Shown here: positions 6,524 through 37,793 of the stretch, one piece after another | Layout: each line of letters begins with the position of its first letter | Numbering within the stretch: the first letter of the stretch is position 1 | Assembly (NCBI GenBank): GCA_029226975.1 | Contig: JAQXZB010000040.1 | Location: 1-41,851 of the forward strand | From: Clostridiales bacterium | GTDB taxonomy: Bacteria > Bacillota > Clostridia > UBA1381 | Direction: 5' to 3' | DNA length: 41,851 bases | The notes under the pieces: model-generated | What the model was told of the DNA's origin: nothing | What the model saw: only the letters and a program-made list of their open reading frames with translations | Databases searched by the model: none | Made by a program: the position numbers and the translations under genes

Positions 6524-6594
6524 TCTCTCCTTAAAAAATTAAGGAGTGTTTTTTTATATATAAAAAGGAGTATCTTATGATACACCTTGTAATA
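6524..6594 (-). promoter_or_regulatory. leader hairpins between RNA copy B and the first small gene
   Basis: Read leftward, the leader forms AAGGUGUAUC with GAUACUCCUU (one mismatch), then a U-run, and then CUCCUUAA with UUAAGGAG (perfect). The second hairpin carries an anti-Shine-Dalgarno-like CUCC some 30 bases before the true AGGAGG. The first hairpin is also present after RNA copy D (24138-24163). These may be tandem terminators or an attenuation leader. Confidence 0.55.
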
Positions 6595-6620
6595 AAACAC
6601 ATTATTTAGCTTTGTAAACT

Positions 6621-6732
6621 AAAAAAGGACGCAGTTATCCCATTTAATGAATAACTACATCCGAAAACTCAGTCCCTTGCATCTCTTAAGTACAAAGGAT
6701 ATAACAAACAATAAATTTAAAATATATATTAT
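6621..6732 (-). ncRNA. repeated two-hairpin structured RNA, copy B
   Basis: Driven by promoter B. P1 is at 6675-6698. P2 pairs 6662-6651 with 6638-6627 over 12 positions and is followed by U6 (6626-6621), a good intrinsic terminator. The linker GGACUGAGUUUU is kept. Similarity with copy D extends past the terminator to about 6556, so the repeated unit here is about 215 bp. Confidence 0.75.
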
Positions 6733-6738
6733 ATTATT

Positions 6739-6767
6739 ATAATACCATAAAAACCTTTATTTGTCAA
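6739..6767 (-). promoter_or_regulatory. conserved-spacer promoter B
   Basis: TTGACA (6767-6762), spacer AATAAAGGTTTTTATGG, TATTAT (6744-6739). It drives RNA copy B and, by read-through, perhaps the small-gene operon. Confidence 0.85.
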
Positions 6768-6798
6768 GAGCTAAATATTTTTTTCACTTGCATTTTTC

Positions 6799-7365
6799 CT
6801 ATATGACAAAATATCTCGCTATATCCGGCAAAAACTCCAATAACCGCTCATACGGCATACCCAAGATACCTTCTGAGAGAAATGATACCATAGACATAAT
6901 CACCCAATATATTACAAATCCTTTAACGCAGCCAAAAATACCGCCAAATATTCTATTCATATGCTTGCTTATTGATATGGAATTAACCCCATTATTCACC
7001 GTCGAGATGATAATACCGCAAATAATCATACATATCATGAATACAAATATCATACATATGACAGTGCCTATGCTGCCAACAATTGCCGATATATCACCGG
7101 GTATTGCGATGCCGTCTGATATGTATTGCAGTGGTACTTTATTTAAGGCGTCCAAAAATCCATCTATTGAAAAATCCGATAAGTTTATGGAGCTTTGAAC
7201 ACGCTCTATGATATTAAATTTTTTTATGAGCATTGCTGACAGCGGCTTTGACACCGCCGCAGCTGTCACAAAGCTTATTACCGTTGATATAAGGCTCCCT
7301 ACGCTTTTTACAAATCCCCTTTTTATTCCTACAAGTCCAAAAATCAGCATAATAATTATATACAT
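6799..7365 (-). CDS. CvpA-like membrane protein
   Basis: A 188-aa integral membrane protein. The N-terminus MYIIIMLIFGLVGIKRGFVKSVGSLISTVISF is typical of CvpA/colicin V production family proteins (a helix, a G-x-KRG-F loop and a second helix). Two further helices lie near residues 95-125 and 140-160. The start is set at 7365, nine bases after GGGAGG; a longer frame to 7413 would overlap the upstream gene. It follows two prepilin-like genes in the same direction. The function of CvpA proteins is not well defined; a membrane-remodelling or secretion accessory role is inference. Confidence 0.65.
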   Translation of the reverse strand: MYIIIMLIFGLVGIKRGFVKSVGSLISTVISFVTAAAVSKPLSAMLIKKFNIIERVQSSINLSDFSIDGFLDALNKVPLQYISDGIAIPGDISAIVGSIGTVICMIFVFMICMIICGIIISTVNNGVNSISISKHMNRIFGGIFGCVKGFVIYWVIMSMVSFLSEGILGMPYERLLEFLPDIARYFVI

Positions 7366-7396
7366 ATGTATCCTCCCTGTTTTACCTGTGCTTTTT

Positions 7397-9421
7397 TTAT
7401 TCCCACTCTTCATTGGTGCAGTTATATTCTATATTGGTTAAAAGACTATAGTTTAAATATGCTCCCGTTGTATCCTTTTCTATGTTATTCCATTCCTCTT
7501 CTGTTCCCTGATAATGAATATATACAGTACTTACATTTCCGTATGTCCAGTTTTTACCCAAATATGTTACCGTTCTTGGTATCCATATATGTATTCCTCC
7601 ATACGGTATACCGTTTAGGTTTCCTATTGCTGCTTCACTCAATGTGGTAAGCCCGTATGGCAAAACCAATTCTCCCCATTGATACCCCCATAAACTGTAT
7701 AATTCTATATTTGGAAGACTGATGCCCTTTTCAAATTTCAGGCCATTATTCATTTTTCCTACGCCTCTGAATGCCCCGCTTATTGAGGTTGTATCTTTAG
7801 GTATAACGGCATTGGTTAAGGTTAATTTTTGACAGTTGTAGAATATCATTTGTGCATTCCCATTGTATCCCAACTTAACATTTGACAGGTCATATTCCGC
7901 TTCCAGTTTGGGGCAATGATAGAATGCTGCACGTCGTATATTGACAACGCTTTCAGGTAATGCATTGGTACTTTGCAAATTAGTACAAGCGGAAAAAGCA
8001 TATTCACCTATTATTTCAAGGCCATCGTTAAACTCCACCGTTTCCAACCCATCACAGCCGGAAAATGCATAAGATATTTCTTTGCACCCTGCTCCAAGTC
8101 TTACGTTTTTAAGGCTTCTGCAAGAGCCGAAATCATAAGGCCATAATTTCGTAACACCGTCCGGAATTTTATATCCTATATTTTCCAGACGTGCACAGTT
8201 TAAAAAAGTATACGCTCCCATCTTTTGAAGACTCTCCGGTAATATGCACTCCGTCATACGACTTCTGCAAAAAAACGCATAATCTCCAAATTCCGTAACG
8301 GTATCGGGTATTTTAATAATAAGAGGCTGATTTACAGAGTCATACAAGGTTATATCTGTTGTGACAGACCCGGAAATTCCCGCGACATTGATTGCGAATG
8401 CGCGCATCCCTATTTTTTTTAAGTGGTCCGGTAATAATACGGTTCCCGTTAAGGCTCTGCAGTTGTAGAAACCGTATTGGGGGATCTCCGAAAGATTTGT
8501 TAGGCCGGACAAGTCAAGGCTCTTTAGGCTTACACAATCATTAAAGCTATATTCTCCTAACAAGGTTATATTCTCCGAGAACTCAACGTTTTCTAAAGCG
8601 CTGCAGTTATTGAATGCATATGCGCCTATCTGAGTTACTTTTTCATTCATTGATAAGCTTACCAGAGAATTGCAATCCTCAAAACAATTTGCGGATATTG
8701 TTTTAATTTCAACTCCGTCAATTGATTTTGGCAATGCCAAGTTTCCCAAAGTGTACACATCATTCACGTCCACCCACGGTGCTATGTAGGATAAGTTACC
8801 GTTTTTGTCGATCTTAAGATTTAACAACGATGCATATTTTGCCGACCAATTTGATGAACCGCCGCTTCCGCTTCCCGATCCACCGATTACCGTAACGTCA
8901 CCCTTTGTAATACTCACTCCGCTATTTCTCGGTGCCAATGTGACTGTATTGGTTCCCTGTCTGCCGGAATGTCCGTAGGTCTTTAAAGATATTGTCACAT
9001 CTATACTTCTCATGTTTTCATCGGTTACATCAAATTTACTGTTTCGCAAATCAGCTTCCATGAGAATTTGTGTGTCTGCATTCTCGGTTCTTTTAATTAC
9101 TCCGTCATCGTCTTCTTTCGCATCTTCGCTCAATGCAATTTCATAGAATATATTATAAGTTTCATGGTTTTGCTCTTGAATAGCCAAAGACATTCCGTCT
9201 TCATCTATCATTATTGCCTTTGCCGACTGTATTTCCCTCCCAAGGTAAAATACCGTCTGTTGATAGGACTCTCTGTATTGTGTTTCCATCTGCGAATCAT
9301 GTGCATTCCCCAATATGAATTTAATAAGCCCAAACGCTGCTCCGGCAATAATCCCTACAATGAAGACAGACACCATGGTTTCCGCTAATGTGAATCCGAC
9401 CTTTATTTTTCTTATTTTCAT
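7397..9421 (-). CDS. prepilin-like N-terminus fused to BspA-type leucine-rich repeats
   Basis: A 674-aa protein. Residues 1-35 carry a class III/type IV prepilin signature: a short basic leader, KVGF at the cleavage point, then TLAE and a hydrophobic helix (TMVSVFIVGIIAGAAFGLI). Residues about 35-190 look like a pseudopilin head ending in a Gly/Ser linker (GGSGSGSGGSS). From about residue 215 to 650 there are more than ten LRR_5/BspA repeats (for example ISANCFEDCNSLVSLSM, IGAYAFNNCSALENVEF). The ATG at 9421 follows GAGGG; ATG 9442 lies inside the previous gene and lacks a site. The protein would need a prepilin peptidase, which is absent from this window. An adhesive pilus-tip or minor-pilin role is inferred. 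Confidence 0.75.
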   Translation of the reverse strand: MKIRKIKVGFTLAETMVSVFIVGIIAGAAFGLIKFILGNAHDSQMETQYRESYQQTVFYLGREIQSAKAIMIDEDGMSLAIQEQNHETYNIFYEIALSEDAKEDDDGVIKRTENADTQILMEADLRNSKFDVTDENMRSIDVTISLKTYGHSGRQGTNTVTLAPRNSGVSITKGDVTVIGGSGSGSGGSSNWSAKYASLLNLKIDKNGNLSYIAPWVDVNDVYTLGNLALPKSIDGVEIKTISANCFEDCNSLVSLSMNEKVTQIGAYAFNNCSALENVEFSENITLLGEYSFNDCVSLKSLDLSGLTNLSEIPQYGFYNCRALTGTVLLPDHLKKIGMRAFAINVAGISGSVTTDITLYDSVNQPLIIKIPDTVTEFGDYAFFCRSRMTECILPESLQKMGAYTFLNCARLENIGYKIPDGVTKLWPYDFGSCRSLKNVRLGAGCKEISYAFSGCDGLETVEFNDGLEIIGEYAFSACTNLQSTNALPESVVNIRRAAFYHCPKLEAEYDLSNVKLGYNGNAQMIFYNCQKLTLTNAVIPKDTTSISGAFRGVGKMNNGLKFEKGISLPNIELYSLWGYQWGELVLPYGLTTLSEAAIGNLNGIPYGGIHIWIPRTVTYLGKNWTYGNVSTVYIHYQGTEEEWNNIEKDTTGAYLNYSLLTNIEYNCTNEEWE

Positions 9422-9434
9422 TTCATTACCCTCT

Positions 9435-9878
9435 TTACTCATGCAAATATAATATTTCGCTCATATGACTCTCTGCTTTTGACAAGTCAATCCTATACAT
9501 ATTGTTTATGCTTTGGTCATATATACCGTCACTGAATACACCGGCTTCAGAATCCTCCGTACACTCTATGCTTTTATCAATATCATTTAACTCACACTTG
9601 CCCTGTCCTACTTTGTACAATGCCACTTCCAATTCGGTATCTGTTTCCAGTTCTTTGATAAAGACATACAAATCATCTTTATTCTTCACTTTCGCTCTGG
9701 CACTTTCCAATACGGATGATAAATACTCATATGTACTTATTACGGTATCTCTCTGCGCATTTATCTTTAATTGTGAACGTGATAAATATATTACGCCTAC
9801 AGTAATACTCATAAGCATTATCGCCGACAATATACACTCAAGAAGCGTAAATCCTTGTTTTTGTTTTTTTATATTCAT
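9435..9878 (-). CDS. type IV prepilin-like protein
   Basis: A 147-aa protein. Its N-terminus, MNIKKQKQGFTLLE followed by CILSAIMLMSITVGVIYL, is a textbook type IV prepilin: basic leader, Gly-Phe cleavage site, Glu at mature position 5 and a hydrophobic helix. The remaining 110 residues form a small soluble head with two Cys. It lies 13 bases upstream of the pilin-LRR fusion, and both may be assembled together. AAGGAAG precedes the ATG. Confidence 0.75.
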   Translation of the reverse strand: MNIKKQKQGFTLLECILSAIMLMSITVGVIYLSRSQLKINAQRDTVISTYEYLSSVLESARAKVKNKDDLYVFIKELETDTELEVALYKVGQGKCELNDIDKSIECTEDSEAGVFSDGIYDQSINNMYRIDLSKAESHMSEILYLHE

Positions 9879-12178: not shown

Positions 12179-12853
12179 TTAACGAATTTTTTTGACGCAT
12201 TTTTTTATGCTTTTTAATGTACTTTTATCCATATCTGTATTGACTACCACATAGCATCCACTCGGCACATCATCAGATATATATGACTCTATTTTTATAA
12301 AAGTTTCACACCCGCAATCTGTTGTCGCTAACGCATCTACAACAGCATTTTGAATCTTGTGAATCAAATAATTGTCATTATCAGGTATCAGTGTCAACGG
12401 AATTTTCGACGAATGGACCACTGCATATGTAATTGTCTTTTGTCTCATATCCATCATTCTGAGGGTCTCTCTGTTTTTATTCAGTGTTCTTTGAAGCTTC
12501 AGTGAAAGATTATATTCATTCTTCACAGCTGCCGCTGAGTGTCCCTTCGGAAGATACGGCAGATAGATGTATACCGTATTATCTTCGATGGTTAATCCGA
12601 TGCCCCCTTTATCCTTTGTATATCCTGTAGTGTCACTGTATGCATATGCATTTTTACCGCTGAAATTAAAATCCAATATCAACCGCTGTGCCGAAGCCAC
12701 ATCATATGATATACTTTCTATGTCCTCCGGTCTTATCAGATTTATACGATACCTCATAAGCTTATCTATCTTTTTTTCTGCTGATTGGATAAGCCTTCGG
12801 ATTTCACTTAATGTACTGACAATAAATTGTTCCTCCAATCGTCCAAGTTCCAT
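12179..12853 (-). CDS. hypothetical protein
   Basis: A 224-aa protein. Residues 1-45 form a charged coiled helix (LEEQFIVSTLSEIRRLIQSAEKKIDKLMRYR); residues about 70-120 are beta-rich with KDKGGIGLTIEDNTVYIYLPYLPKG; the C-terminal third is alpha/beta with a Cys pair (TDCGCET). AAGGAGG lies five bases before the ATG. It sits ten bases after the 185-aa gene and probably shares its transcript. No function assigned. Confidence 0.5.
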   Translation of the reverse strand: MELGRLEEQFIVSTLSEIRRLIQSAEKKIDKLMRYRINLIRPEDIESISYDVASAQRLILDFNFSGKNAYAYSDTTGYTKDKGGIGLTIEDNTVYIYLPYLPKGHSAAAVKNEYNLSLKLQRTLNKNRETLRMMDMRQKTITYAVVHSSKIPLTLIPDNDNYLIHKIQNAVVDALATTDCGCETFIKIESYISDDVPSGCYVVVNTDMDKSTLKSIKKCVKKIR

Positions 12854-12863
12854 GCTGTCCTCC

Positions 12864-13421
12864 TTAAAAATTCACAATAGAAAGCGAGTTGTCCGATTTT
12901 AATATACAGTAGCAATCGAACCCATACTTCTTGCATTCCTGACCTTTATCATCATCATTAACCATTGCGATGTGTACAATTTTTTGTTCATATTCATCAT
13001 CAACCGTTCCGCCCAGCACTCTTTTGATATGCGGGAAAACCGTGTTTTCATTGAATTTCTCAATAACAGTCACATCGAACATAACATCATCATTTGTTAT
13101 AATTGCCAACTGCAGCGGGTAACTCAAAGCATTTATGGATCTCACATCCTGCGGCTGAAATGCCGACATAATCCATGCTGACTTCGTAAGAAGACGCTGA
13201 TGTGTCGGGTCCCGTTTTAAGTGGAGATTGTATGTACTGTAGGTATTGGTATTTCCATCATATACCAACTTATGCCTTGATACAAGGTTTTGTAAAGACC
13301 ACTTAATGCTTTCCTCCTCTTTAAACTCTTTTCTATAGAACGCTGTCACCTGATCCTCGTGAACCAAACCGAACTCATTAACAAAATCCAGTATATTGTC
13401 AATCAGCAGATAATGTCTCAT
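12864..13421 (-). CDS. winged-helix protein, possibly DUF5697-like
   Basis: A 185-aa protein. Residues 5-65 (LLIDNILDFVNEFGLVHEDQVTAFY, then SIKWSLQNLVSRHKLVYDGNTNTYS) read as a winged helix; the C-terminal half is alpha/beta with strand patterns LAIITNDDVMFDVTVI and QKIVHIAMVNDDDKGQECKKYG. This layout resembles DUF5697 proteins of Clostridia mobile elements, an assignment made from memory with moderate trust. It is the first gene downstream of the 131-bp tandem repeats and so the natural candidate to bind them. Confidence 0.5.
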   Translation of the reverse strand: MRHYLLIDNILDFVNEFGLVHEDQVTAFYRKEFKEEESIKWSLQNLVSRHKLVYDGNTNTYSTYNLHLKRDPTHQRLLTKSAWIMSAFQPQDVRSINALSYPLQLAIITNDDVMFDVTVIEKFNENTVFPHIKRVLGGTVDDEYEQKIVHIAMVNDDDKGQECKKYGFDCYCILKSDNSLSIVNF

Positions 13422-13456
13422 TTTTTCATATTCCTTTCCTATCGCTTGTAAATTTT

Positions 13457-13762
13457 ACGCGTATTATTTATATTTTTAATACCCCTAAATCGCACATTTA
13501 ATACTCCTAAAACTTTTCTTTACGCGTATTAAATGCCTGTTATGCGCGTATTATTTACCCTTTTAATACTCCTATATGCTAAGCGTTAGGAGTATTATTT
13601 GTATTTTTAATACTCCCAAATCGCACATTTAATACTCCTAAAATTTTTCTCTACGCGTATTAAATGCCTGTTATGCGCGTATTATTTACCCATTTAATAC
13701 TCCCATATATTAAGCGTTAGGAGTATTATCTGTATTTTTATTACCCCTAAATGCTCCTATTT
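13457..13762. repeat. 131-bp tandem repeat with iteron-like words (2.3 copies)
   Basis: The unit starting GTATTATTTA at 13461 recurs at 13592 and again, partially, at 13723, an exact period of 131 bases. Inside it, TTTAATACYCCYA words occur about seven times (near 13475, 13497, 13563, 13606, 13628, 13694 and, altered, 13736), their reverse TTAGGAGTATTA twice (13586, 13717) and GCGTATTA five times. This is the whole intergenic stretch between VirB4 and the 185-aa winged-helix gene. Iteron origin, centromere or repressor array are all possible. Confidence 0.8.
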
Positions 13763-13765
13763 TTC

Positions 13766-16489
13766 TCACGCTGTTACTTTTACACTCCGTTTTTGAGCCT
13801 GCTTTGCGAGCTGTTCTCTGTCGGTAGTAATCAATTCATTCTCGTTTTTAGAAGACTTAAAATCCACCAACACATGATTAGAATTAGCCATAAGCAGCCC
13901 CTCTCCTCTTTGAAAATGAGTTACTTGCTGAATTTCCACTCTTGATAAGCCCAACGTATTTTCAACCCTTGCAGCTTCTTCAGTCTCAAGCTGCATTATG
14001 AATTTGATTTTTGCGTTGTTAATAATCCCTTTACCGTATGAACCGTTATCCAAAGCAAAGAAATCATTCAAATCCTGCGTTGCAGCAATGGCCGAACCTC
14101 CGTATCCTCGAATAACCTTAAATATCTCTAAAACGAAATCAGCAGCTTCTTCAGAAGATTTTGAACCTATCAGTTTCCACAACTCATCCAAAAATACAGC
14201 CTTTCGTGTCGTTCTGTCTTCGCGGACCTTATCCCATACATAATCCAAAACGATAAACATTCCAACTTTCAAAAGTTCTCCGGTGAGATCAGAAACGTCA
14301 AGGACTATATACTTATTATCAAGGTTTACATTAGTTCGCATATTAAAGGAATCTGCCGAACCGTTTACATATCTGGCCAAAATATTATATAGTCTTTTCC
14401 CCGCGTCGCCGGTCTTTCCCAACTCTTTTTGAAGGTCTCCCAAAATAGGCATTTCCTTATATTCGCCGGTTTCTTTATTCGCTATAAGGCTCTCATTATC
14501 ATTGGTAATGCCATAAGACTTATATGTACGGATTAAAGCCTCGTCCAACAGTTGTGTTTCTTCATAAGTTATATTGGGAATCAGCAGTGAAAAGAATGTA
14601 TGAATTTGCTGTATCTTCGCCGCTAAAATAGAATAATCCAAGCTGTCCTGTCCATCAAGCAGCATCGTGTTGCTGTAATCCAATTTACGAATTTCCATTA
14701 TATTGATATTCTGTCCCGATCCTGCACATATTTTTACATATTCTCCCCCTATTGCGGAACAAGCACGTTTGAATTCATGTCCTTTATCCGGTGCAATTAT
14801 AAACACTTGCGTCTTTTTCTGCCTCATTCTCAATGCCATGCACTGCAGTGTATATGTTTTTCCCGCTCCTGAAGTTCCCAATATAGCCATATTAGCATTC
14901 TTATATTTTTGCGAATCAAAGTTGTCCACAAATACCAGTGAATTATTTGCTCGGTTTATTCCCATCAGTATACCGTTTTCATCAGATACCTCAAAGGATA
15001 CAAACGGATATGCACTTGCCAATGAACTTGACAGCACATTTCTTTTACTCTTTTCAAAGATATTATCATCCCATTTACAAATCGGCAAGCTCATAAGGAA
15101 TGACTGTTCCTGCTGAAACCAACATAATTTAAGCTTCATATCGCGTGATAACAGATACAGCTTAATTTCATTGATTTTATAGGCCAAACTTTCCGGGTCA
15201 TCTGCCATTATTGTAAGCAAAACTGCCATATAGCAGAAATCGTCGCCCTGCGCGATGCCTTGCTTCAGATAATACCCCGAATTGATTGTAGTGGATAATT
15301 CATCAAACTCCATAGACGTATCATCAATGCTATGAGCTCTTAATTGGTTGTACCGCAGTGCAAATTGAAGCTTTGTCTGTATTTTATCAATAGGCTCTTT
15401 CCGTATAAATAGGTCTACATCCACACCTTCTCCTAAATTTGCAAGTATTGAAAACCACCCTGCCTGATTGTTAATAGGATAAGCGCTTGACGGCAAATAC
15501 GCATAACAATAATACTTACCGTCAACTATCATATACTTCGGACTCTCCTTAACGTCTATACTTTCAGGCGCAAGAAAATCATTTACAGGTATATAATTAT
15601 CGCCGGGTGTATAGTTATCATCTGCTATATACCTTGATATTACCTCCAATTTCTTGGAATTAAAAGAAGTACTCTCAGCTTCCTTTCTGCACATAATTTC
15701 ATAAAACAATTCCATAATCTCATCATCGTCATTAAGAGCTCTCACTTCGTTACCGCAAGATACCAACATATTTTTAATTCGGAATGCTATATTGTCCAAA
15801 TCATATTGAATATCCTCAAACGAAGGCGAATGTTTCATTCCTGACGGTTCAGTATAGTTAAAAGCAATAAAAAACCGTCTTGAAACTCCTTCAGCTGCAG
15901 ATACCCTTGAAATAAGGTCTATCTGCTCTTGCTGAAGAATTCTGCAATTTTTATTCTTTTCTGTCTTTATGTCATTGTTTATCTTTTGAATAAACTTACT
16001 GCTGTCCGCCTTTTTTGATATTATTTTAAATTGTATTTTCACAGGCATTGTTCTTAATGCAGCCGCAAATTCCTGTATAATGGCCTCCTGCTCACTTGTA
16101 GACCTTAAGGCAAAGTTTATCGGCATAACCTCCAATATTTTTACAAACCTTCGATCTTTTGTGCAGACTATACCCTTATTGATGTCTCTAATCGGCGAGA
16201 ACGCTTGAGTACTCTGTATTTTCATAAGCTTCTTCTTTTTTCCCGAAGTTCTTTTTAATACATCGTGCATATTATCTCTGCCTTCGTCATCTTCAATTGC
16301 CGAGTCCTCTTCATCCTCAAAAATAACGTCCTCATCCTCTTTAGCATTTGACTTTTTGTTTGCAAACCCTTTTATCAAGTTCCGTATTGTCTTATTTCTC
16401 TCTGCATTGTCACCGCTTGATTCTTTCCAATCGTCAAATTCCACTTCCACTTCTGAATTGTCGTCGGCTATATTTTTCTTAAAAAACAT
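13766..16489 (-). CDS. virB4: VirB4-like conjugative transfer ATPase
   Basis: A 907-aa AAA+ ATPase that energises type IV secretion. An acidic low-complexity N-terminus (to about residue 75) precedes a TraC/VirB4 N-terminal domain. Walker A GTSGAGKT is near residues 537-544, followed by QVFIIAPDKGHEFKRACSAIGGEYV, the typical VirB4 segment. Walker B KAVFLDELWKL is near 763, then the sensor motif ATQDLNDFF. No membrane helix is visible, so it probably docks to the membrane via PrgI. The length is in the usual range, slightly long. It starts about 30 bases after PrgI in the same operon. The classical partners VirB6, a peptidoglycan hydrolase and VirD4 do not follow; the repeat region does. Confidence 0.92.
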   Translation of the reverse strand: MFFKKNIADDNSEVEVEFDDWKESSGDNAERNKTIRNLIKGFANKKSNAKEDEDVIFEDEEDSAIEDDEGRDNMHDVLKRTSGKKKKLMKIQSTQAFSPIRDINKGIVCTKDRRFVKILEVMPINFALRSTSEQEAIIQEFAAALRTMPVKIQFKIISKKADSSKFIQKINNDIKTEKNKNCRILQQEQIDLISRVSAAEGVSRRFFIAFNYTEPSGMKHSPSFEDIQYDLDNIAFRIKNMLVSCGNEVRALNDDDEIMELFYEIMCRKEAESTSFNSKKLEVISRYIADDNYTPGDNYIPVNDFLAPESIDVKESPKYMIVDGKYYCYAYLPSSAYPINNQAGWFSILANLGEGVDVDLFIRKEPIDKIQTKLQFALRYNQLRAHSIDDTSMEFDELSTTINSGYYLKQGIAQGDDFCYMAVLLTIMADDPESLAYKINEIKLYLLSRDMKLKLCWFQQEQSFLMSLPICKWDDNIFEKSKRNVLSSSLASAYPFVSFEVSDENGILMGINRANNSLVFVDNFDSQKYKNANMAILGTSGAGKTYTLQCMALRMRQKKTQVFIIAPDKGHEFKRACSAIGGEYVKICAGSGQNINIMEIRKLDYSNTMLLDGQDSLDYSILAAKIQQIHTFFSLLIPNITYEETQLLDEALIRTYKSYGITNDNESLIANKETGEYKEMPILGDLQKELGKTGDAGKRLYNILARYVNGSADSFNMRTNVNLDNKYIVLDVSDLTGELLKVGMFIVLDYVWDKVREDRTTRKAVFLDELWKLIGSKSSEEAADFVLEIFKVIRGYGGSAIAATQDLNDFFALDNGSYGKGIINNAKIKFIMQLETEEAARVENTLGLSRVEIQQVTHFQRGEGLLMANSNHVLVDFKSSKNENELITTDREQLAKQAQKRSVKVTA

Positions 16490-16519
16490 ATTATCTTCTC
16501 CATTTCATGCTTACTTTTC

Positions 16520-17080
16520 TCAAATGCCGCTGTCACCTTTTAGCAATTCCGGCAATTTTTCATTTTCCTCAAGCATTCTCTTTTCAATATTCTTGAAAAT
16601 CTCAAATTCTGCATCCTCTTCAAATTCGAAATTTTCACCCTCAATGAATGTTATCGGTTCCCGTTTATCTGATTTCTTTTCTTTCCATGCGTCTATTGTA
16701 TTCAACAGTTTATCTTTTGGCTGTTCCTGAGCCATCTGCAAATCAATAGCCTTTATCTTTCTTGCCCTCACTTGACCATTGTTAAGCATCACTCTTTTCG
16801 CCTTCAGCCATCCATACGAATATTTAACAAAAGTGCTTAATGGATCTCCGTTTATTCCTGCGTTGCCCAATAAAAACAGCGGTAATGCACATGATATTAC
16901 TGTTGACAATTTTACCGCAAAACTCGGAAAAGGAAATTGCCACAAAGGAAAAGCTACTATCAGTGCCAACCCGACACCTTCAATGAAATTACGTCTCTTA
17001 AACAATCCGTTTAAGACCCTTCCTCCGTCAACAAAATTTTTAGGAATTACATATACCTGTACCTGCTCATCTTCTGCCAT
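16520..17080 (-). CDS. PrgI-family T4SS membrane protein
   Basis: A 186-aa protein. The first 95 residues match PrgI/VirB3-like proteins of Gram-positive conjugation: VYVIPKNFVDGGRVLNGLFKRRNFIEG, then two adjacent helices (about 37-56 and 60-80). A charged cytosolic tail of about 90 residues is longer than in typical PrgI (about 110-130 aa) and is Glu/Lys-rich. ATG 17080 is used; TTG 17086 is nearer to the AAAGGAG and may be the true start. It lies directly before virB4, as usual. Confidence 0.8.
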   Translation of the reverse strand: MAEDEQVQVYVIPKNFVDGGRVLNGLFKRRNFIEGVGLALIVAFPLWQFPFPSFAVKLSTVISCALPLFLLGNAGINGDPLSTFVKYSYGWLKAKRVMLNNGQVRARKIKAIDLQMAQEQPKDKLLNTIDAWKEKKSDKREPITFIEGENFEFEEDAEFEIFKNIEKRMLEENEKLPELLKGDSGI

Positions 17081-17107
17081 TTTCAATCTGCTCCTTTACA
17101 AATTATT

Positions 17108-17143
17108 GAGCAATTTCTCCGAATATCGGAGGAGAAATTGCTC
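17108..17143. other. perfect intercistronic hairpin
   Basis: GAGCAATTTCTCC (17108-17120) pairs with GGAGAAATTGCTC (17131-17143) over 13 positions, loop of 10. It lies between the S1-domain gene and prgI. No U-tract follows on the minus strand, so partial attenuation or mRNA processing is more likely than termination. Confidence 0.7.
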
Positions 17144-17163
17144 ATTCAGTCTGCCCAAGCCGC

Positions 17164-18450
17164 TTAATTATTGATACGAAGAATCCTTCCTCTTATCAAC
17201 CCGCTTTCGGCCATAATATCAAAAATTTCAACCGATACCGAATCTCCCACCATCGGAGGTCTGGAAACTCCCACCAATGCTGTTCCGCCGTTTCTAAGAT
17301 ATCCAAATACCGCATATCCCGGAACTTTGGCATCTTCTAAATATATCGCTATTGTGGGTGTTCCGTTTTTATTGCTGTAAATATTGGTTATATGCCCGCA
17401 CCAGATAGAGCCCACATACAAGTTTTTAACGCGCTCTACATACTCATCTTTCTCAGCATGCCTTCCCGATACGGTAATATTAATCGGCATTCCGTCATCA
17501 TCATAATCGATTCTCATAATGCGAACCGCTATATCATCGCCGACTCTATATTCCTCGGCAAAGTTCTCAATATACTTATATGTTACAGACCAATTCTTCA
17601 AGCTTATATCGAACCCCAATACATTGATAAACAATGCGCCGCGTCCTACCGCTATAATTTTTGCATTTACAACGTCTCCGACTTCATACAGTGACCTTCC
17701 GCCCTGCCCTTTGTGGAGGTTGTATATGCCAATTCTCTCCAGTGCCGCCTTGCGGGATCCGGCTATAATATACTCACCGTTTGGATTACCCGTCATATCT
17801 GTTATACAAAACGACATAGGCGCGCCCATCGATCTCATAAGCAAATTCCGCTGCCTTCTTCTTATAATCCCCTGATTAGGGCCTGTTACGGTTGTATCTC
17901 TGAATACTTCCGAAAAAGGAATTGTAATATTAAAATTACCGCACGATACAATAGCCGCTACACCTAACACCTCAGAGCCCCGTGCAATGTTCTGTATTGA
18001 AACAAGCACGCCGGATAGGATTCTGTTTTCTTTTCTCGCAGCCACAAGCTGCTCCCACTCAGAAACCCTCAACGCATTATTTTGCTCGGCACGTTCCCTT
18101 TTTTCCGCCCTATTTTTTCTCTCCAAAGCTGCAATTCTGCTCTGTTCTACAATTTCACTTCTTGATACTCTATCCGCTTTCCCATTATTCATCACATCCG
18201 GAAGGTTTTCATCAGCGGATTCTTTGTCTTCCGTTGCAGTTTCATTTGCCAGAGCAGCGGTCTTTCCTTTTCCTTTTGCAGCATTTTTAACGCGTTTCTT
18301 CTCATCAGGAACGGCAACTTCTGCACCCTCATCACCGGTTGCAATCGTTTCCTCTGTATCCTCCGGCTTCAAGTCAAGAATCTCACCAAAATCATTTTGA
18401 CTTTCAAGCTCCTCGTCCTTTTCAATAATTAATTCTTTCTCTGTTGCCAT
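17164..18450 (-). CDS. S1-domain (OB-fold) RNA-binding protein
   Basis: A 428-aa protein. The N-terminal 150 residues are acidic then Lys/Arg/Glu-rich and probably disordered or coiled (AALERKNRAEKRERAEQNNALRVSEWEQL). From about residue 225 there are S1-like OB domains: GDVVNAKIIAVGRGALFINVLGFDISL and then YRVGDDIAVRIMRIDYDDDG. A further domain, YVGSIWCGHITNIY, leads to VGDSVSVEIFDIMAESGLIRG. The start is unsure: ATG 18450 lies 25 bases after GGAG, while in-frame non-ATG codons up to 18501 would be closer. It is the first gene of the operon carrying prgI and virB4, an unusual place for an S1 protein. Confidence 0.65.
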   Translation of the reverse strand: MATEKELIIEKDEELESQNDFGEILDLKPEDTEETIATGDEGAEVAVPDEKKRVKNAAKGKGKTAALANETATEDKESADENLPDVMNNGKADRVSRSEIVEQSRIAALERKNRAEKRERAEQNNALRVSEWEQLVAARKENRILSGVLVSIQNIARGSEVLGVAAIVSCGNFNITIPFSEVFRDTTVTGPNQGIIRRRQRNLLMRSMGAPMSFCITDMTGNPNGEYIIAGSRKAALERIGIYNLHKGQGGRSLYEVGDVVNAKIIAVGRGALFINVLGFDISLKNWSVTYKYIENFAEEYRVGDDIAVRIMRIDYDDDGMPINITVSGRHAEKDEYVERVKNLYVGSIWCGHITNIYSNKNGTPTIAIYLEDAKVPGYAVFGYLRNGGTALVGVSRPPMVGDSVSVEIFDIMAESGLIRGRILRINN

Positions 18451-18643
18451 AGCTTTCTTTGCAAGATAAATCTTGCTCTCCTTTCTTATTTTTTTACACA
18501 AAAATCATTATTTGTCAGGCTTTTATGTAACAAACATTCCGCCGCAGCCAAAATACCGAGGCGTTCCGGATTAAATGTTTACTTAATGCATCTCACTGTT
18601 TATTGCAAACCCTGAGAATTTAACTTATCAGCCCTTTATACCA

Positions 18644-24069: not shown

Positions 24070-24137
24070 TTTGTTTCTCCTTTCTCCTTGCAAGTTGTGG
24101 CAAGGAACACACATTAAATTTTTTTATTTATATAAAA

Positions 24138-24163
24138 AGGCGCATCATATGATACACCTTGTA
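24138..24163 (-). promoter_or_regulatory. second leader hairpin after RNA copy D
   Basis: AAGGUGUAUCAU pairs with AUGAUGCGCCUU over 12 positions with G-U pairs and is followed by U5AUAU. The same hairpin, with one mismatch, follows RNA copy B. It may be a back-up terminator or an attenuator in front of the DUF932-like gene. Confidence 0.55.
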
Positions 24164-24186
24164 ATAAAACACATTATTTAGTTTTG

Positions 24187-24304: not shown

Positions 24305-24310
24305 ATTACT

Positions 24311-24339
24311 ATAATACCACAAAAACCTTTATTTGTCAA
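24311..24339 (-). promoter_or_regulatory. conserved-spacer promoter D
   Basis: TTGACA (24339-24334), spacer AATAAAGGTTTTTGTGG, TATTAT (24316-24311). Only promoter seen for the DUF932-YqaJ-RecD2 operon, which would be reached by read-through of RNA copy D. Confidence 0.85.
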
Positions 24340-24365
24340 GGGTTTGAAAAAATTTTCATGTGAAA

Positions 24366-31477: not shown

Positions 31478-32041
31478 CTATTCTACATTTGCCGCATTTT
31501 TTGAATGACTGTGAAACGAAACCGGTAGCCAAAATCCCGCTCGTCCTTCCCCATATATTGACGGGAACAACGCCTTCATAAACACCGACTGTACATACAG
31601 ATTTCCTTTCAAAGATACTTCAGGTGATATTACAGTACCGTCTATCATCACTCCACCCTCATAAATCAGTACATCGGTAAACTTGATTTTGCACACAGTT
31701 TTTCCGCTTTTTTCTTTCCTCCATTCACTTCCTTCTAAATCCGATGCGCTATGAATGCTTCCTGCTCCTGAGCAAATAAGCTCCTCGCTTTGCAGATACG
31801 TTTTCAAAGCGTTAAGAGACACGTCTTTATTTATTCGGCCGATATGGGTTTTTCTGTAACTGTCTATCATACCGCTTTCCATAGCCACATTACAGGCACG
31901 ATACATATTTTCAGTTATCGTTTCCTGCGCTTGATATATTGAATATATCTCTATTGACAATATAAATACTATACCAAAAACTATGTAAAAGACAATATAC
32001 ATAGGATTTGTCAGAGCTCCTCTTTTTGTTTTGGAAATCAT
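31478..32041 (-). CDS. TadE-like pseudopilin, minor
   Basis: A 187-aa protein: a short basic N-terminus (ISKTKRGALTNP), one transmembrane helix (about residues 14-36, MYIVFYIVFGIVFILSIEIYS) and a 150-residue outer domain with a Cys pair. This is the topology of TadE/TadF/TadG minor pilins. Last gene of the Tad-like operon, 13 bases after the previous one. GAGGTG precedes the ATG. Confidence 0.6.
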   Translation of the reverse strand: MISKTKRGALTNPMYIVFYIVFGIVFILSIEIYSIYQAQETITENMYRACNVAMESGMIDSYRKTHIGRINKDVSLNALKTYLQSEELICSGAGSIHSASDLEGSEWRKEKSGKTVCKIKFTDVLIYEGGVMIDGTVISPEVSLKGNLYVQSVFMKALFPSIYGEGRAGFWLPVSFHSHSKNAANVE

Positions 32042-32054
32042 CAACAAACTCACC

Positions 32055-32582
32055 TCACTTGTGATATACCTGAGATATGCCTTTAAGAGTTTTATGTATC
32101 GGCATCGTTATACGTGCACCCAGATAATCGAAATATACCGTCGTATTTATAGTCACAGTAAAAGTACCTCTTAAATTCAAATATTTTTGATTTATGCTAT
32201 GAGTACGCGAGCTGCATGTATTATTTTCTCTGCCGTGCTTTGAGGCTGAGTTTACATTTATATAAATATACGGTACATTGTTATTGGCAGGCAGTGAATA
32301 TTTTATATTCGTTCCCGTGAAATTTGATTTTGAAACCGCACCGGATGAGGTGGATCCCAAAACAAGTCCGTTCGACAAATTATTTACAGCCTGTTCTACT
32401 GTTGTTGTATCATACTTGCCGGCCACTTCAATAACCCGTACAACCTCTTTAGTCAAATAGTCAACATTCATCTTAACCATAAAAGGTTTTATCATAAGAA
32501 TAAATGCAAGTAATATAAATGCAACAATCAGCATCTGCATCATGCTGTCCAGCGCGGCCGAGGCCTTTTTCTTTTTCTGCAT
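32055..32582 (-). CDS. TadE-like / DUF4320-type pseudopilin
   Basis: A 175-aa protein: basic N-terminus (QKKKKASAALDS), a helix at about 13-33 (MMQMLIVAFILLAFILMIKPF) and an outer beta domain. The post-helix segment VDYLTKEVVRVIEVAGKYDTTTVEQAV resembles DUF4320 proteins that accompany Tad-like ATPases in Clostridia. ATG 32582 follows AAAGGAGG; the frame to 32642 is an overextension. Confidence 0.65.
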   Translation of the reverse strand: MQKKKKASAALDSMMQMLIVAFILLAFILMIKPFMVKMNVDYLTKEVVRVIEVAGKYDTTTVEQAVNNLSNGLVLGSTSSGAVSKSNFTGTNIKYSLPANNNVPYIYINVNSASKHGRENNTCSSRTHSINQKYLNLRGTFTVTINTTVYFDYLGARITMPIHKTLKGISQVYHK

Positions 32583-32651
32583 ATATTCCTCCTTTAATGT
32601 TTTACGAATGCGTCGGACAGTTAAGCCCGACGCATTCGCCAAAGAGTCTCT

Positions 32652-32879
32652 TTAAAGTGCTGATGTGTCCAGAATTCCGCTTATTCTGTCTATGATACTC
32701 TCAAACAAATCCGGGAATGCCGTCTTTCCCAATATTATAAGCGCCGCACCGATTATAACAACAAATACCGCAATAATCAGCCAGTCCGTCGTCTGAGACC
32801 CCGCCTTTGTACATCCGCGCTTAAGCTTTCCCATAATTTCATTCTTTTTACACAAAGCCTTTAATACTAACTTGTTCAT
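32652..32879 (-). CDS. Flp-pilin-like small membrane protein
   Basis: A 75-aa protein: a basic leader (KALCKKNEIMGKLKRGCTKAGSQT), one hydrophobic helix (about 33-51, WLIIAVFVVIIGAALIILG) and a short tail. Its place directly after TadB/TadC-type genes is that of the Flp major pilin. The classic Gly-x(4)-Glu-Tyr processing motif is not evident, so it may be a TrbC- or DUF6133-like pilin substitute. GAGGAAAC precedes the ATG. Confidence 0.6.
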   Translation of the reverse strand: MNKLVLKALCKKNEIMGKLKRGCTKAGSQTTDWLIIAVFVVIIGAALIILGKTAFPDLFESIIDRISGILDTSAL

Positions 32880-32934
32880 ATTGTTTCCTCCTCATAAAAT
32901 AATTTTATTTTTAATATCTTTCGATATTTTTTAC

Positions 32935-33810
32935 TTATCCAAACAATGCCAGTCCGTTTATAAGCTCCAAGCCTATCGGATACATCAATACCGCGAAGAG
33001 CAGCACTGCCAGCATCATTGTAATCCTATGCACCTTTTCAGGGCGCTTGTCGAGTTCTCTTTGAATATTCTCCCTTGCCAAAACAGTCATTTCATGCCCC
33101 AATGTATCAAAGAAATACCCCTGATCCTCTCCCTTTTGTGCCGATATAAGGGCATTTACAAACTGCGACATATGCGGTATGTTAATCCGTTGCTCGAATC
33201 GTCTCAAAGATTCCTCACTTCCCATAGTCTTAAGGTCCGTAATAAGGACATCAAGATCATATTTAAACGCATCGCCTGCCACTTTTCTGTATTTCTCCAT
33301 GATATCAATAAGCTCCGGATTCTGCGAACGCGAGTTGTTATATGTCCTTATAAATCTCGGCATTTCTCTTAATATTTTAGCGCTCTTATCACCAAGCTTA
33401 TCATTGACTTTATCAATCCTTGAAAAATACATTATAACGGCCAATATAATACCCAACACTCCAAAAAACTTCGATAGCGTGAAAAACAATATAATACCCA
33501 CGATACCGATATAGGCAGTTATGGTAATAGCTTCCGCATAATACTCCTCAGGAGTCACGGTATACCCCGCTCGAATCAAATCCCTGCGCAGCCGCTCTCG
33601 TTTATACATATCAATCTTAATAAAGCGTGATATAATTCGTGCCGTAGGCGATACCAAAAAATCCTTTAAATCCTCCAGTATGCTTGTATCCTCAGAGTAA
33701 TGGTTTAAGTTCTTAACGGCTCCTCTCGACGGCATAACCCTGCAGCATAAGTACAGATTATAAAATCCGAAGCCGAGAAGAAATATGAGAATAATCGTTA
33801 AAAATATCAT
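32935..33810 (-). CDS. tadC: TadC-like inner-membrane platform protein
   Basis: A 291-aa protein with a GspF/T2SSF domain. There are N-terminal (about 1-20), central (about 95-130) and C-terminal (about 262-285) membrane helices, and a cytoplasmic four-helix domain (ILREMPRFIRTYNNSR, then GEDQGYFFDTLGHEMTVLARENIQRELDKRPEKV). TadC pairs with TadB to form the platform on which TadA acts. It begins 14 bases after TadB. Confidence 0.75.
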   Translation of the reverse strand: MIFLTIILIFLLGFGFYNLYLCCRVMPSRGAVKNLNHYSEDTSILEDLKDFLVSPTARIISRFIKIDMYKRERLRRDLIRAGYTVTPEEYYAEAITITAYIGIVGIILFFTLSKFFGVLGIILAVIMYFSRIDKVNDKLGDKSAKILREMPRFIRTYNNSRSQNPELIDIMEKYRKVAGDAFKYDLDVLITDLKTMGSEESLRRFEQRINIPHMSQFVNALISAQKGEDQGYFFDTLGHEMTVLARENIQRELDKRPEKVHRITMMLAVLLFAVLMYPIGLELINGLALFG

Positions 33811-33823
33811 TTCTTCCACCACC

Positions 33824-34750
33824 TTATATTTCCTTAATCGGCTGATTTATCTTAAATACCGCAAAGCAGCTTATCGCGGCAACCAATACAACAACAGCCA
33901 CAATAATCTGACCTATCAAGGTATGAGTTAAGTTGTAATACCAATCCTTATTAAGCACACGCAGCAGCGGGATAGACCCCAAAACAATACCGGCCACCAT
34001 GAAGTACTCACGCCATATATTGGCCATTGATGTTGCAAGCTCCTCCTGCATAATCTTCAAATCACTCATTTGGTCAATAATTGCTGGAAGAACATATTTC
34101 AGTTCTCTGTCTTCCTGACAAAGAATAAGAGTATCGCACCACTCTTTGAACTGGTAATTATCAACCTTTGCCTTTAAAATTCTCAGATTTTTTGCAATAT
34201 TGGAGTCAATGAACGAATTTGAGGCCACGAACTCTCTAAACATTGTATTTATAGGTTCTTCTATATTTCCGAGATTTTCTTTTACTGACATTACAATATC
34301 CTCATTCTGCAGATATGAATTTGTCACAATACTCATGGCAGACTGCAAATTTTCATTCAGTCTTGCAATATAGCTCGTCTTCTTAATACTGAAGATAAGC
34401 ATAGGAAGCCCCAAGAATGCACCGCCCAAAATAAATACAAGGAATATGTTATTGACAGCAATCCCAAAAGCCATACCGCATAAGCAGCTTAAAATAGTGA
34501 GCATGCGAAACTGTCTGTATGTCATCCTTGAATTGGACAGCTTCAATACCTCCTCTGCATTGAGCCTGAATTTATCGACAAAGCTTAATTTTTCACCGAT
34601 AATGTCATTTATTTTCTGCTTCTGGATTTTCTTCTCAATATTTTCCCACTTCCGCAGCTTTATATTTCGTTTATCCGTAAACAGCGTGATAAACCCAAAG
34701 CACAAGCATACAAACAGCAGCAGAATCTCCACAGCATATTTTAATATCAT
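33824..34750 (-). CDS. tadB: TadB-like inner-membrane platform protein
   Basis: A 308-aa protein with T2SSF-type layout: N-terminal helix (4-24), two helices at about 82-118, a cytosolic region with LNENLQSAMSIVTNSYLQNEDIVMSV and QEELATSMANIWREYFMVAG, and two C-terminal helices. The ATG at 34750 follows AGGAGGG; the longer frame runs into tadA. It starts 13 bases after the tadA stop. Confidence 0.75.
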   Translation of the reverse strand: MILKYAVEILLLFVCLCFGFITLFTDKRNIKLRKWENIEKKIQKQKINDIIGEKLSFVDKFRLNAEEVLKLSNSRMTYRQFRMLTILSCLCGMAFGIAVNNIFLVFILGGAFLGLPMLIFSIKKTSYIARLNENLQSAMSIVTNSYLQNEDIVMSVKENLGNIEEPINTMFREFVASNSFIDSNIAKNLRILKAKVDNYQFKEWCDTLILCQEDRELKYVLPAIIDQMSDLKIMQEELATSMANIWREYFMVAGIVLGSIPLLRVLNKDWYYNLTHTLIGQIIVAVVVLVAAISCFAVFKINQPIKEI

Positions 34751-34763
34751 TGTCACATCCCTC

Positions 34764-36218
34764 CTATTTGACCGATGCATACCATTTGGGCGATGCATAC
34801 CGCCTGATTGTTTCAATCTCTGCTCCGTTTTCAAGCATTCTGGTAGCAAGCTTGTCCGACAGTGGCATAATCTTCTTATGTTCTCCCGATACCTTCAAAT
34901 TCCCATACTCATCTTTGGTCCAGCCATGCACTTTGTATTCATATAAGACATTATATTTTAAATGCCCGTCCACATAATCTGTAGGCTCAATTATTCGCAT
35001 ATACTTTCTGCTTCCGTCTTTGAGTTGTTTTTTGAATACAACAATCGGAAATGCATCCATTATCATACCCATGAGCATATTCTCGGAGAGCTTTGTACCC
35101 GTTTCAAGACACATGGTAAGAATTCTCTTATACGCTTCTTCAGCCGAGTTGCAATGCACCGTTGTAGCTATGGTATGTCCCGTTCTTCCCGACTCCTGTG
35201 CTGTCCATGCCTCCGCACCTCTCATTTCTGCGGGAACAATTATATCCGGATGCTGTCTTAACGCCTGCTTCAAAAGCATTTCCGGCGTAACACTTGTTTT
35301 GGGGTCATTGGTTGTTCTGGTCTTGGTATACAGCACTCTGTTGACAACTCTGCCGTTATCATCACGTTTTGTAACATCCAACTCCCTTGCTTCTTCCATT
35401 ATGTACACGCGCTTTGAATCGTCTATATTGTCAAGCACATACCCCAAATCTGCTGTTTTTCCGGAGCCTGTAGCACCTCCGAGTACAATGGAAATACCGT
35501 TGTTTATACAAGTAACAACAAAATCAAGTTCATCTTCTGTTGCTGTATCATACTTTAAAAACATTTCCTTCGTAATCTTAGATGATTTCTGTCGTCTTAT
35601 CGATGCAACCGCACCGACCGCCGCATCAACTATAGGCGGGACCATAGCAGATATTCTTGTTCCCTGAAATATGTAACTGTCTTTAACCGGCTGGGAGCCA
35701 TCAATAACAATGCCTCCCAACCGGCACATTTTCGCAACAATGTCCTGACACTGCTGCGGACTTGCAAAATGTTCCTCAAGTTTCCTATATTCTTTTCCTC
35801 CGCAAGCGCTGTCGATTACTTCAATATCATCATAAGAGTTTATATTGATTTCCTCGACATCATCATTGTAGATATACGGCGTTAAGAACGAAAATCCCGC
35901 CATGTCATCAAAAATCTTTTCTGTAAGCTCATTGTAATCGCTTATCTGAGCACATACAATGTTATTACTGTTGATGTATCTTGCTATTAGGCTTTTAAGT
36001 ATCTTTTGACCCTCGGTTTTTGTAATACTGTCTGCCAACTCTGTAGCATGATTTTGCGATATGTCCTTTTGAACCACCGCAAGCACATCTTCATAAGATT
36101 TCGGAGCGTTTGCATCCGACTGGTATTTTTGAAGCTGTTCTTCTTCCATTCCGGCTGCCACGCCTCCGTTTGCCATCTGCGCCTCATACAAAGCGCTAAA
36201 TACATTTCCGTCAGGCAT
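34764..36218 (-). CDS. tadA: TadA/CpaF secretion ATPase
   Basis: A 484-aa VirB11/GspE-type hexameric ATPase. An N-terminal helical region leads to PYIYNDDVEEININSYDDIEV and GGIVIDGSQPVKD, the CpaF N-terminal domain. Walker A GGATGSGKT is near 246-254, the Asp box near 275 (YIMEEARELD) and the Walker B-like DIIVPAEMRGAEAW near 325. The His box TGHTIATTVHCNSAEEAYKRI is near 345. All catalytic elements are present. It overlaps the CpaE-like gene by 8 bases. It powers pilus or transfer assembly with TadB/TadC. Confidence 0.9.
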   Translation of the reverse strand: MPDGNVFSALYEAQMANGGVAAGMEEEQLQKYQSDANAPKSYEDVLAVVQKDISQNHATELADSITKTEGQKILKSLIARYINSNNIVCAQISDYNELTEKIFDDMAGFSFLTPYIYNDDVEEININSYDDIEVIDSACGGKEYRKLEEHFASPQQCQDIVAKMCRLGGIVIDGSQPVKDSYIFQGTRISAMVPPIVDAAVGAVASIRRQKSSKITKEMFLKYDTATEDELDFVVTCINNGISIVLGGATGSGKTADLGYVLDNIDDSKRVYIMEEARELDVTKRDDNGRVVNRVLYTKTRTTNDPKTSVTPEMLLKQALRQHPDIIVPAEMRGAEAWTAQESGRTGHTIATTVHCNSAEEAYKRILTMCLETGTKLSENMLMGMIMDAFPIVVFKKQLKDGSRKYMRIIEPTDYVDGHLKYNVLYEYKVHGWTKDEYGNLKVSGEHKKIMPLSDKLATRMLENGAEIETIRRYASPKWYASVK

Positions 36219-37014
36219 TCACTTCAACCTCCCCGTCTTTTTTATCTACACTTTTCAAAATCACATCAATCAGCCTGTTCATACCGTTATTAAACGTATC
36301 CTTTTTAAAGAGTGAATGCGCAGCACCTGTACTCATTATCGGTACCCCTTCATTTTCACACTTTGCAACATTTACGTCGTAAGGAATACATAAATCAAAT
36401 GTTAAACCTATATGTTTTTCAATTTGACCTATCCCTACATAGTTCATGTCTCCGTTGGCAACATTCAGTATGGGCGAATCGTGAAGATTACGCATTTTGT
36501 TCAAAAATGTGTTATATGCTTTAAAAAAACATACTCCCTGAACCGTCGGCTTTACCAAATGTATAATTTTATTCGCACTGTGTATGCTCCATGTGGAAAG
36601 CAGGTTATTCACATCATTGGAGCAATCCACTATAACATAGTCAAAATTCGAATTCTTAAGTTCCGAGTAGAAGCTTTTGACTACCGCTAAATCCTCGAAT
36701 TTCGTTTCCGCTGCAAACCGCAGACAGTCCGTTGAATTCGGTATAGATAGAACGAATAATTTGTTATACGCACTATGCTGTACAAACATCTGCTGATATT
36801 CTATTGTATGCGCTGCAGAAAAAATCTGAGCGAAACTTGAGTCATTGTCATTTATCTCCATGCACAGAAAAGATTGCAGAGAAGGATATGAAAAGTCTGT
36901 ACACATAATTCCTACCAGCTTATTCTTTTTCTGTGCAAGTGTGTACGCCAAATTTACAGCTACGGTTGTTTTTCCTGCACCGTTAGCTCCGTACACCGCA
37001 ATTATTTCAGTCAT
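36211..37014 (-). CDS. cpaE: CpaE-like ParA/MinD-family ATPase
   Basis: A 267-aa protein. Walker A GANGAGKTT (residues 9-17) with the hydrophobic helix VAVNLAYTLAQKK, MCTDFSYPSLQSF (A' motif with Asp) and FDYVIVDCSNDVNNLLSTW (Walker B) mark the SIMIBI fold. Tad operons encode the related CpaE/TadZ ATPase that localises the pilus machine. It lacks the N-terminal receiver-like domain of canonical CpaE. ATG 37014 is preceded by AAAGGAG. Confidence 0.75.
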   Translation of the reverse strand: MTEIIAVYGANGAGKTTVAVNLAYTLAQKKNKLVGIMCTDFSYPSLQSFLCMEINDNDSSFAQIFSAAHTIEYQQMFVQHSAYNKLFVLSIPNSTDCLRFAAETKFEDLAVVKSFYSELKNSNFDYVIVDCSNDVNNLLSTWSIHSANKIIHLVKPTVQGVCFFKAYNTFLNKMRNLHDSPILNVANGDMNYVGIGQIEKHIGLTFDLCIPYDVNVAKCENEGVPIMSTGAAHSLFKKDTFNNGMNRLIDVILKSVDKKDGEVEVNA

Positions 37015-37030
37015 GCCACACACGCTCCTT

Positions 37031-37741
37031 TCACTGTCCGGAACCGTATTTGCCTGCATTATCTTCATCAATCGCCTTTATAATATTTGCCGCATTTTCT
37101 CCTCTTGCAACAAAGCAAATATACGGTGCTCCGTACAATCCGTTATACTCTACAAGCTGAATTGACTGTGCCGGATTTACCTTAAGTGTAACAACCGCCG
37201 GTACTTTATCATCTTCTTCAACCATATCGCGTGTCACTTCAGTTCCTTTTGAATTGGACACGGACAATACTTCCAGATTTCCGGATGATACAACGCGCGG
37301 AGGATTACTTTTTGAATCATAATAATTCAATGTAACAACATCTCCGGCCAAAACCTTTCCCGCAACAGAGTTTATAAGTGATGACGCATCTACGCTCAGA
37401 GCATATTCGTATGCTTTTAAATCATATAGCCCATAATCGCTTGGTGCTGCAGATACCTTCTCATTCGTCAGACAGTCGTCCTTATATACCGCCGTCTTCG
37501 TATACTTCCCGACCGCCTCCTCTTTTGTTTTAAGCGCGCTTGCCGGAATATCCTCAGCATACATTTCCGTTTCTTCAATATCATCCTCCGATATCAGCGT
37601 ATTTACACTGGTGTCCGCCTTGAGTTTAATAACTTTTTCCTTCTTGTTGTTATTTCTTGGCATAAAAACCACTACTATCAGTATTGCCAACAGGAAACTC
37701 GCCCCGGCAATAACATACTTATTTTTCAATAAATTGCTCAT
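37031..37741 (-). CDS. cpaB: CpaB-like SAF-domain pilus protein
   Basis: A 236-aa protein: one N-terminal helix (about 8-25, KYVIAGASFLLAILIVVVF), a SAF-like segment (KADTSVNTLISEDDIEETEMYAEDIPASAL, then AVGKYTKTAVYKDDCLTNEKV), then a beta domain with VAGKVLAGDVVTLNYYD. This is the layout of CpaB/RcpC proteins that act outside the membrane in Flp pilus assembly. First gene of the Tad-like operon. Start at 37741 because the longer frame runs through the promoter. Confidence 0.75.
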   Translation of the reverse strand: MSNLLKNKYVIAGASFLLAILIVVVFMPRNNNKKEKVIKLKADTSVNTLISEDDIEETEMYAEDIPASALKTKEEAVGKYTKTAVYKDDCLTNEKVSAAPSDYGLYDLKAYEYALSVDASSLINSVAGKVLAGDVVTLNYYDSKSNPPRVVSSGNLEVLSVSNSKGTEVTRDMVEEDDKVPAVVTLKVNPAQSIQLVEYNGLYGAPYICFVARGENAANIIKAIDEDNAGKYGSGQ

Positions 37742-37764
37742 CGTAATACATACTCCTCCTTTAA

Positions 37765-37793
37765 AAAAATCCATAAAAAGCATTATTTGTCAA
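37765..37793 (-). promoter_or_regulatory. conserved-spacer promoter G, Tad-like operon
   Basis: TTGACA (37793-37788), spacer AATAATGCTTTTTATGG, but a poor -10 (ATTTTT, 37770-37765). The motif is kept although the -10 is weak, which suggests that the spacer is selected for itself or that an activator is needed. Confidence 0.55.

Follow-up and report, generated by a model that had tools for sequence, protein, structure and literature searches.

A gene in the window, the whole analysed stretch of 41,851 nt that forms contig C40 of a Clostridiales bacterium, begins like a type IV prepilin and continues into a large leucine-rich repeat (LRR) protein. The question is whether such a protein is carried by a pilus and, if so, in which position. 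The gene probably encodes a J-like modular minor type IV pilin displaying an LRR adhesin at the pilus tip; its cleavage, assembly, tip position and adhesive role are what we infer. The features on which this assignment draws are collected in Table 1.

Table 1. Features of the window, with positions in nucleotides.
Feature	Position	Strand	Basis
J-type minor prepilin with BspA/LRR_5 repeats, 674 aa (681 aa from 9442)	7397..9421	-	ORF, Pfam, orthology of the pilin half
Class III leader peptide MKIRKIKVG, predicted cleavage before FTLAE, Glu5 present	9395..9421	-	Sequence
Mature J-type pilin domain, predicted long N-terminal helix and beta strands	8909..9394	-	Alignment to J proteins of relatives; AlphaFold2 model
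Linker with GGSGSGSGGSS joining the pilin and LRR modules	8834..8908	-	Translation
BspA-type LRR_5 solenoid and C-terminal cap, approximate limits	7510..8720	-	LRR_5 in four stretches; solved relatives
I-type minor prepilin, 147 aa, MNIKKQKQG followed by FTLLE	9435..9878	-	Motif, homology to I proteins of relatives
CvpA-like membrane protein (Colicin_V family)	6799..7413	-	Pfam Colicin_V, E 1.8e-16
Conjugation module: S1-domain protein, PrgI-like protein, VirB4-like ATPase, DUF5697 protein, 224-aa protein	12179..18501	-	Pfam
Tad/Flp-like module: CpaB-like, CpaE-like, CpaF, TadB/TadC-like, Flp-like 75-aa pilin, TadE-like (DUF4320), TadF-like	31478..37783	-	Pfam, ORFs

The minus-strand reading frame 7397-9442 is uninterrupted. 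Translation from its first ATG gives 681 aa and from the second (9421) 674 aa; the second is most likely the true start, and a Shine-Dalgarno-like AGAGGG lies upstream of it. The N-terminus has the class III signal peptide of modular type IV pilins, MKIRKIKVG followed by FTLAETMVSVFIVGIIAGAAFGLI, with a hydrophobic alpha-1 segment and Glu5. The Pfam family N_methyl was found at residues 16-37 of the 681-aa form. When the protein was searched singly, the score was 17.4 bits (E 0.0033), under the cut-off of 21.2 bits, and in the genome search it was 22.1 bits, over the cut-off. The C-terminal part matched LRR_5 with an E-value of 2.8e-69 in four separate stretches covering about 390 residues (about 240-640). 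These are the tandem repeats of BspA-type LRR proteins and, at the same time, an extra C-terminal domain not specific to type IV pili, as modular pilins possess. The solved BspA-like relatives of the LRR half include 4fs7 (E 5e-33) and 4gt6 (E 3e-27). Since both halves are homologous to known families, a chance origin of the frame was ruled out. Thus, the 674-aa fusion of a prepilin leader with LRR_5 repeats, which the earlier note had proposed from the letters alone, is borne out by the frame, the cleavage motif and both Pfam families; the domain search that it had suggested detected N_methyl and LRR_5, the former above its cut-off only in the genome search.

BspA-like LRR_5 proteins are usually secreted or wall-anchored by means of an ordinary signal peptide. 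The window protein has the same LRR_5 repeats and a C-terminal cap similar to that of the BspA-like surface proteins 4fs7, 4gt6 and 6mlx, but here the repeats are borne by a pilin. This combination is not new. More than 1,200 modular pilins of 264 architectures have been surveyed (Raynaud et al. 2021, PMC8179133); the extra domains of its 15 most frequent architectures include IPR026906, and the combination of this domain with the prepilin motif IPR012902 is itself one of the 15. IPR026906 was checked to correspond to PF13306, that is, LRR_5. The surveyed architecture likewise has an N-terminal prepilin motif followed by LRR_5 in one protein. The idea of an undescribed fusion was therefore rejected, and with it the view of the earlier note that the fusion is not a standard family: the basic prepilin-LRR_5 fusion is already published, and the window protein belongs to the modular pilins. 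The same domain order, for which a search had been proposed, is thus on record in this survey (PMC8179133). Among viral contigs, plasmids and phages the full fusion gave either no relative or matches to the LRR part only, and the plasmids contained no match to the J half by itself. In the survey text, the architecture comes without gene context or function.

The position of the protein in the pilus was approached through its relatives. A search of 70 same-family genomes with the first 178 residues found matches in two besides the host, in short open frames of 168 and 179 aa. In one of them (G064), the locus reads major pilin E - I - J - K - H. In the other (G054) it reads E - I - J, with a J of 162 aa, after which the contig stops. 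A class-wide search added a third genome (G258) with E - I - J - K - H and a J of 160 aa. The letters E, I, J, K and H mean "like" throughout and were given from gene order, the motif and the K-like subunit, which lacks the GFxxxE motif. I and J thus follow the major pilin within an operon for a type IV pilus, and the complete order E-I-J-K-H is present in two of the three relatives. In all three, J has no LRRs; its length is 158-160 aa in G064 and G258. Because the relatives carry the same two genes after the major pilin, without the LRRs, the window pair is identified from its sequence as I-like and J-like. The orthologues of the fused gene lie between I and K in G064 and G258 and after I in G054; in the window, J follows the I gene, and K is found on another contig. 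A scan of the genome contigs with the J alignment returned the G064 and G054 loci again and otherwise distant prepilins only.

The pilin half of the window protein aligned with the J proteins of the relatives with pairwise E-values of 2e-14 and 2e-17; a REIQSA segment and a PR.S end are conserved. The alignment covers the full length of the short J proteins and ends just before the Gly/Ser linker of the window protein, so that a complete pilin module stands ahead of the extra domain, as in other modular type IV pilins. The LRR module has therefore been appended to a complete J pilin. By this comparison, the fusion consists of two complete modules, with the LRRs following a J subunit that is itself intact, and the LRR-free orthologues show that an adhesin module can be added in this way. 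Curated family scores were not reached: the J half matched ComGF weakly (E 2.4e-5; 24.6 bits against a cut-off of 80) and stayed under the NCBIfam ComGF/GspJ cut-offs. The J of a relative is also below the ComGF cut-off; the lineage is therefore divergent, and the label "J-like" is used in place of ComGF or GspJ. Other LRR fusions were found neither among the best 150 or so class-wide N_methyl matches nor with the narrow J profile, searches that give no measure of rarity. Large J-type or other prepilins occur elsewhere. Genome G190 (L091 1465-3267) has a J-type prepilin of 601 aa with a beta-solenoid-like C-terminal half, which represents another modular J pilin. In genome G375 (L080-L084, several contigs), open frames of about 500-630 aa encode at least 12 large prepilins; of the five that were read, four are nearly identical over an N-terminal stretch exceeding 110 aa and diverge beyond it.

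The AlphaFold2 model of the J segment, built from four sequences, has a low-to-medium mean pLDDT of 62.8 and contains a 60-residue N-terminal helix and beta strands. Foldseek placed Streptococcus sanguinis PilB first in the PDB (E 0.13), with no match below E 0.1. A second look gave chain C of 5bw0, the XcpV-XcpW (GspI-GspJ) complex, with a Z-score of 8.0 over 109 residues, which is near the background of the aligner, followed by S. sanguinis PilB (Z 6.8). The model matches agree with the J assignment, short of proof. Of the structure prediction that the earlier note had called for, the J-segment model is thus pilin-like, but the single-sequence model of the whole protein was unusable (mean pLDDT 43.6).

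The ordinary prepilin gene that had been noticed directly upstream is confirmed by its motif and by its homology to prepilins of the relatives. The 147-aa product gave only E 0.072 with N_methyl, but matched the I prepilins that adjoin the J orthologues at E 5e-12 and 1e-9. Its stop codon lies 13 nt ahead of the 674-aa start. Downstream, the CvpA-like gene overlaps the J-LRR gene by 17 nt and is the third gene of a putative operon. The order of an I-like and then a J-like gene, each with a class III leader, is that of the GspI-GspJ, PilV-PilW and ComGE-ComGF pairs, whose J proteins, unlike that of the window, lack a large adhesive module. In S. sanguinis, adhesion is mediated by a modelled tip complex of the I-like PilA with the modular pilins PilB and PilC (PMC9934059, PMC8179133). 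PilB and PilC are likewise minor pilins with a large C-terminal binding module, an I-like partner and a predicted role as tip adhesins; however, their module is a vWA or lectin domain and not LRRs, their genes are inside the pil locus, and their adhesion is experimentally supported.

As the carrier is a J-type minor pilin, the LRRs are probably located at the pilus tip and not along the shaft. The earlier suggestion of a pilus-tethered BspA adhesin accordingly holds as to the display of a putative binding domain on a pilus, and it can be narrowed to a probable place at the tip. In the proposed mechanism, the minor pilin of the J position (GspJ/PilW/ComGF-like), with its C-terminus formed by a BspA-type LRR_5 solenoid, would be translated together with the I-type partner. 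A prepilin peptidase would cleave the leaders of both, after which these two pilins would combine with the K- and H-like subunits to prime the type IV pilus. The LRR domain at the tip would bind a ligand, probably on the surface of a host, a food particle or a neighbouring cell. The remaining machine (PilT, PilB, PilM/N, PilO, PilC, the major pilin E, K and H) is encoded elsewhere in the same genome. LRR_5 would thereby be placed on an identifiable J-like tip subunit in a monoderm lineage.

Such a machine is present in the host assembly, a binned assembly of 2.8 Mb in 123 contigs that is 97.9% complete. Contig C28 carries PilB, PilT and the start of PilM, and contig C1 carries PilM/N, PilO, PilC, E, K and H; the two overlap exactly over 141 bp. 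The host K and H matched those of G064 with E-values of 1e-26 and 2e-35. On C1, I and J are absent between E and K, where the sequence is continuous and the gap is only 122 nt, and the J profile detected no copy in the host genome other than that of the window. As the host operon lacks I and J and the window J is the only one detected, the window contig most likely supplies the missing pair. C28 also carries, at L066 4390-8115, a gene for a secreted LRR_5 protein of 1241 aa; it adjoins PilT of the host operon and runs on the opposite strand.

It could be argued that C40 comes from another organism or from the plasmid of another cell, the host's own I-J pair being unassembled. The assembly is indeed fragmented into its 123 contigs, C40 ends in repeated sequence, and C40, C28 and C1 are unlinked or merely overlap-linked within one bin. 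However, GC and GC3 are similar between C40 and the pilus genes, and the E-K gap on C1 is unbroken at the very place where I and J would be expected, which makes such an artefact highly improbable.

Neither the window nor the 2.8-Mb host assembly yielded a prepilin peptidase when searched with two Pfam families, including Peptidase_A24, and a profile built from the peptidases of relatives; the suggested search for this enzyme elsewhere on the element thus came out negative for the window and the whole genome alike, and processing of the leaders can therefore only be presumed. A Peptidase_A24 candidate on contig C31 (E 0.395) was rejected because it runs antisense to an ORF of 910 aa. In several relatives, a gene of about 490 aa is followed by a TadV-like peptidase; no such enzyme follows the 1105-aa gene of the window. 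G054, which also has these pilin genes, gave no peptidase match either. In incomplete assemblies, a missing peptidase is by itself no evidence against processing. The N-terminus might nevertheless serve only as an uncleaved membrane anchor, in which case this would be a usual surface LRR protein and no part of any pilus. The missing peptidase would fit this explanation, as would the many LRR_5 proteins of the host genome, one of them adjoining PilT. But the absence of the enzyme can reflect an assembly gap, and a mere anchor would not account for the conservation of the whole J pilin domain, beyond the leader, with operon-encoded J prepilins, for the retained I partner, or for a genome with pilus genes but otherwise no I or J. 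This explanation is consequently considered unlikely, and the J-like tip pilin is preferred.

The less usual point of the locus is that the I-J pair stands apart from the other pilus genes, beside Tad and conjugation genes. Neither this separation from the operon nor a J-type LRR carrier with LRR-free orthologues was found described in the literature. The Tad/Flp-like module is on the same contig as the pair. The plasmid pMM35_02 of Vescimonas fastidiosa has a gene set comparable to the conjugation module, with 47% identity in VirB4. Together with the RecD2- and YqaJ-like genes of the contig, the Tad-like module and the VirB4/PrgI/DUF5697/S1 set point to a conjugative element or plasmid. A single locus of G064 (L056 7115-19999 with L057) joins Tad-like genes to a type IV pilus gene set without a break and is preceded by Ku, DNA-ligase-like and integrase-like genes. 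CpaF and CpaB of the window share 46% and 29% identity with their G064 counterparts, which immediately precede PilT. Given this position, one ancestral locus may have held both the Tad-like and the type IV pilus genes, and a move of the I-J pair onto a mobile element of its own is just one reading among several.

The pair might instead work with the Tad-like or conjugative apparatus encoded beside it on C40, acting for instance as a mating-pair adhesin, rather than with the pilus of C28 and C1. Its common contig with the Tad-like and VirB4/PrgI genes speaks for this; however, the relatives hold I and J within a type IV pilus operon, the host operon is without them, and the contiguity of both gene sets in G064 makes a shared contig no pointer to Tad function. 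Such a role appears very unlikely, and the pair is better assigned to the host pilus. It is conceivable, though on the whole rather improbable, that a mobile conjugative element carries only the I-J tip pair, its J bearing the LRR adhesin, and supplies or swaps the tip of the incomplete type IV pilus of the host. If this were true, the binding specificity of the pilus would travel with the element; with the pair truly on a conjugative element, such specificity could spread horizontally.

The contig also contains repeated sequences. A unit of about 240 nt occurs on the minus strand at 24121-24358 and 6549-6786, with partial copies at 1-177 and 41817-41850 (3' end). It comprises a TTGACA-N17-TATTAT promoter followed by about 180 nt with several strong hairpins and ends in a hairpin and a T-run. 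One copy folded at -56.8 kcal/mol (z -7.25) and matched no Rfam family; the unit may serve the element as a small RNA or as a structured leader. The promoter-like TTGACAAATAANNNTTTTTNNGGTATNAT was found at 12 sites with up to three mismatches (8 of them without any), against 0 expected; its positions are 133, 6739, 18644, 24311, 29497, 39359, 39546 and 41730, plus weaker sites. Conservation that includes the spacer suggests a common promoter of the operons of the element. Finally, a direct repeat of 131 nt is present at 13455-13716 in two tandem copies, 92% identical, between the DUF5697 and VirB4 genes.
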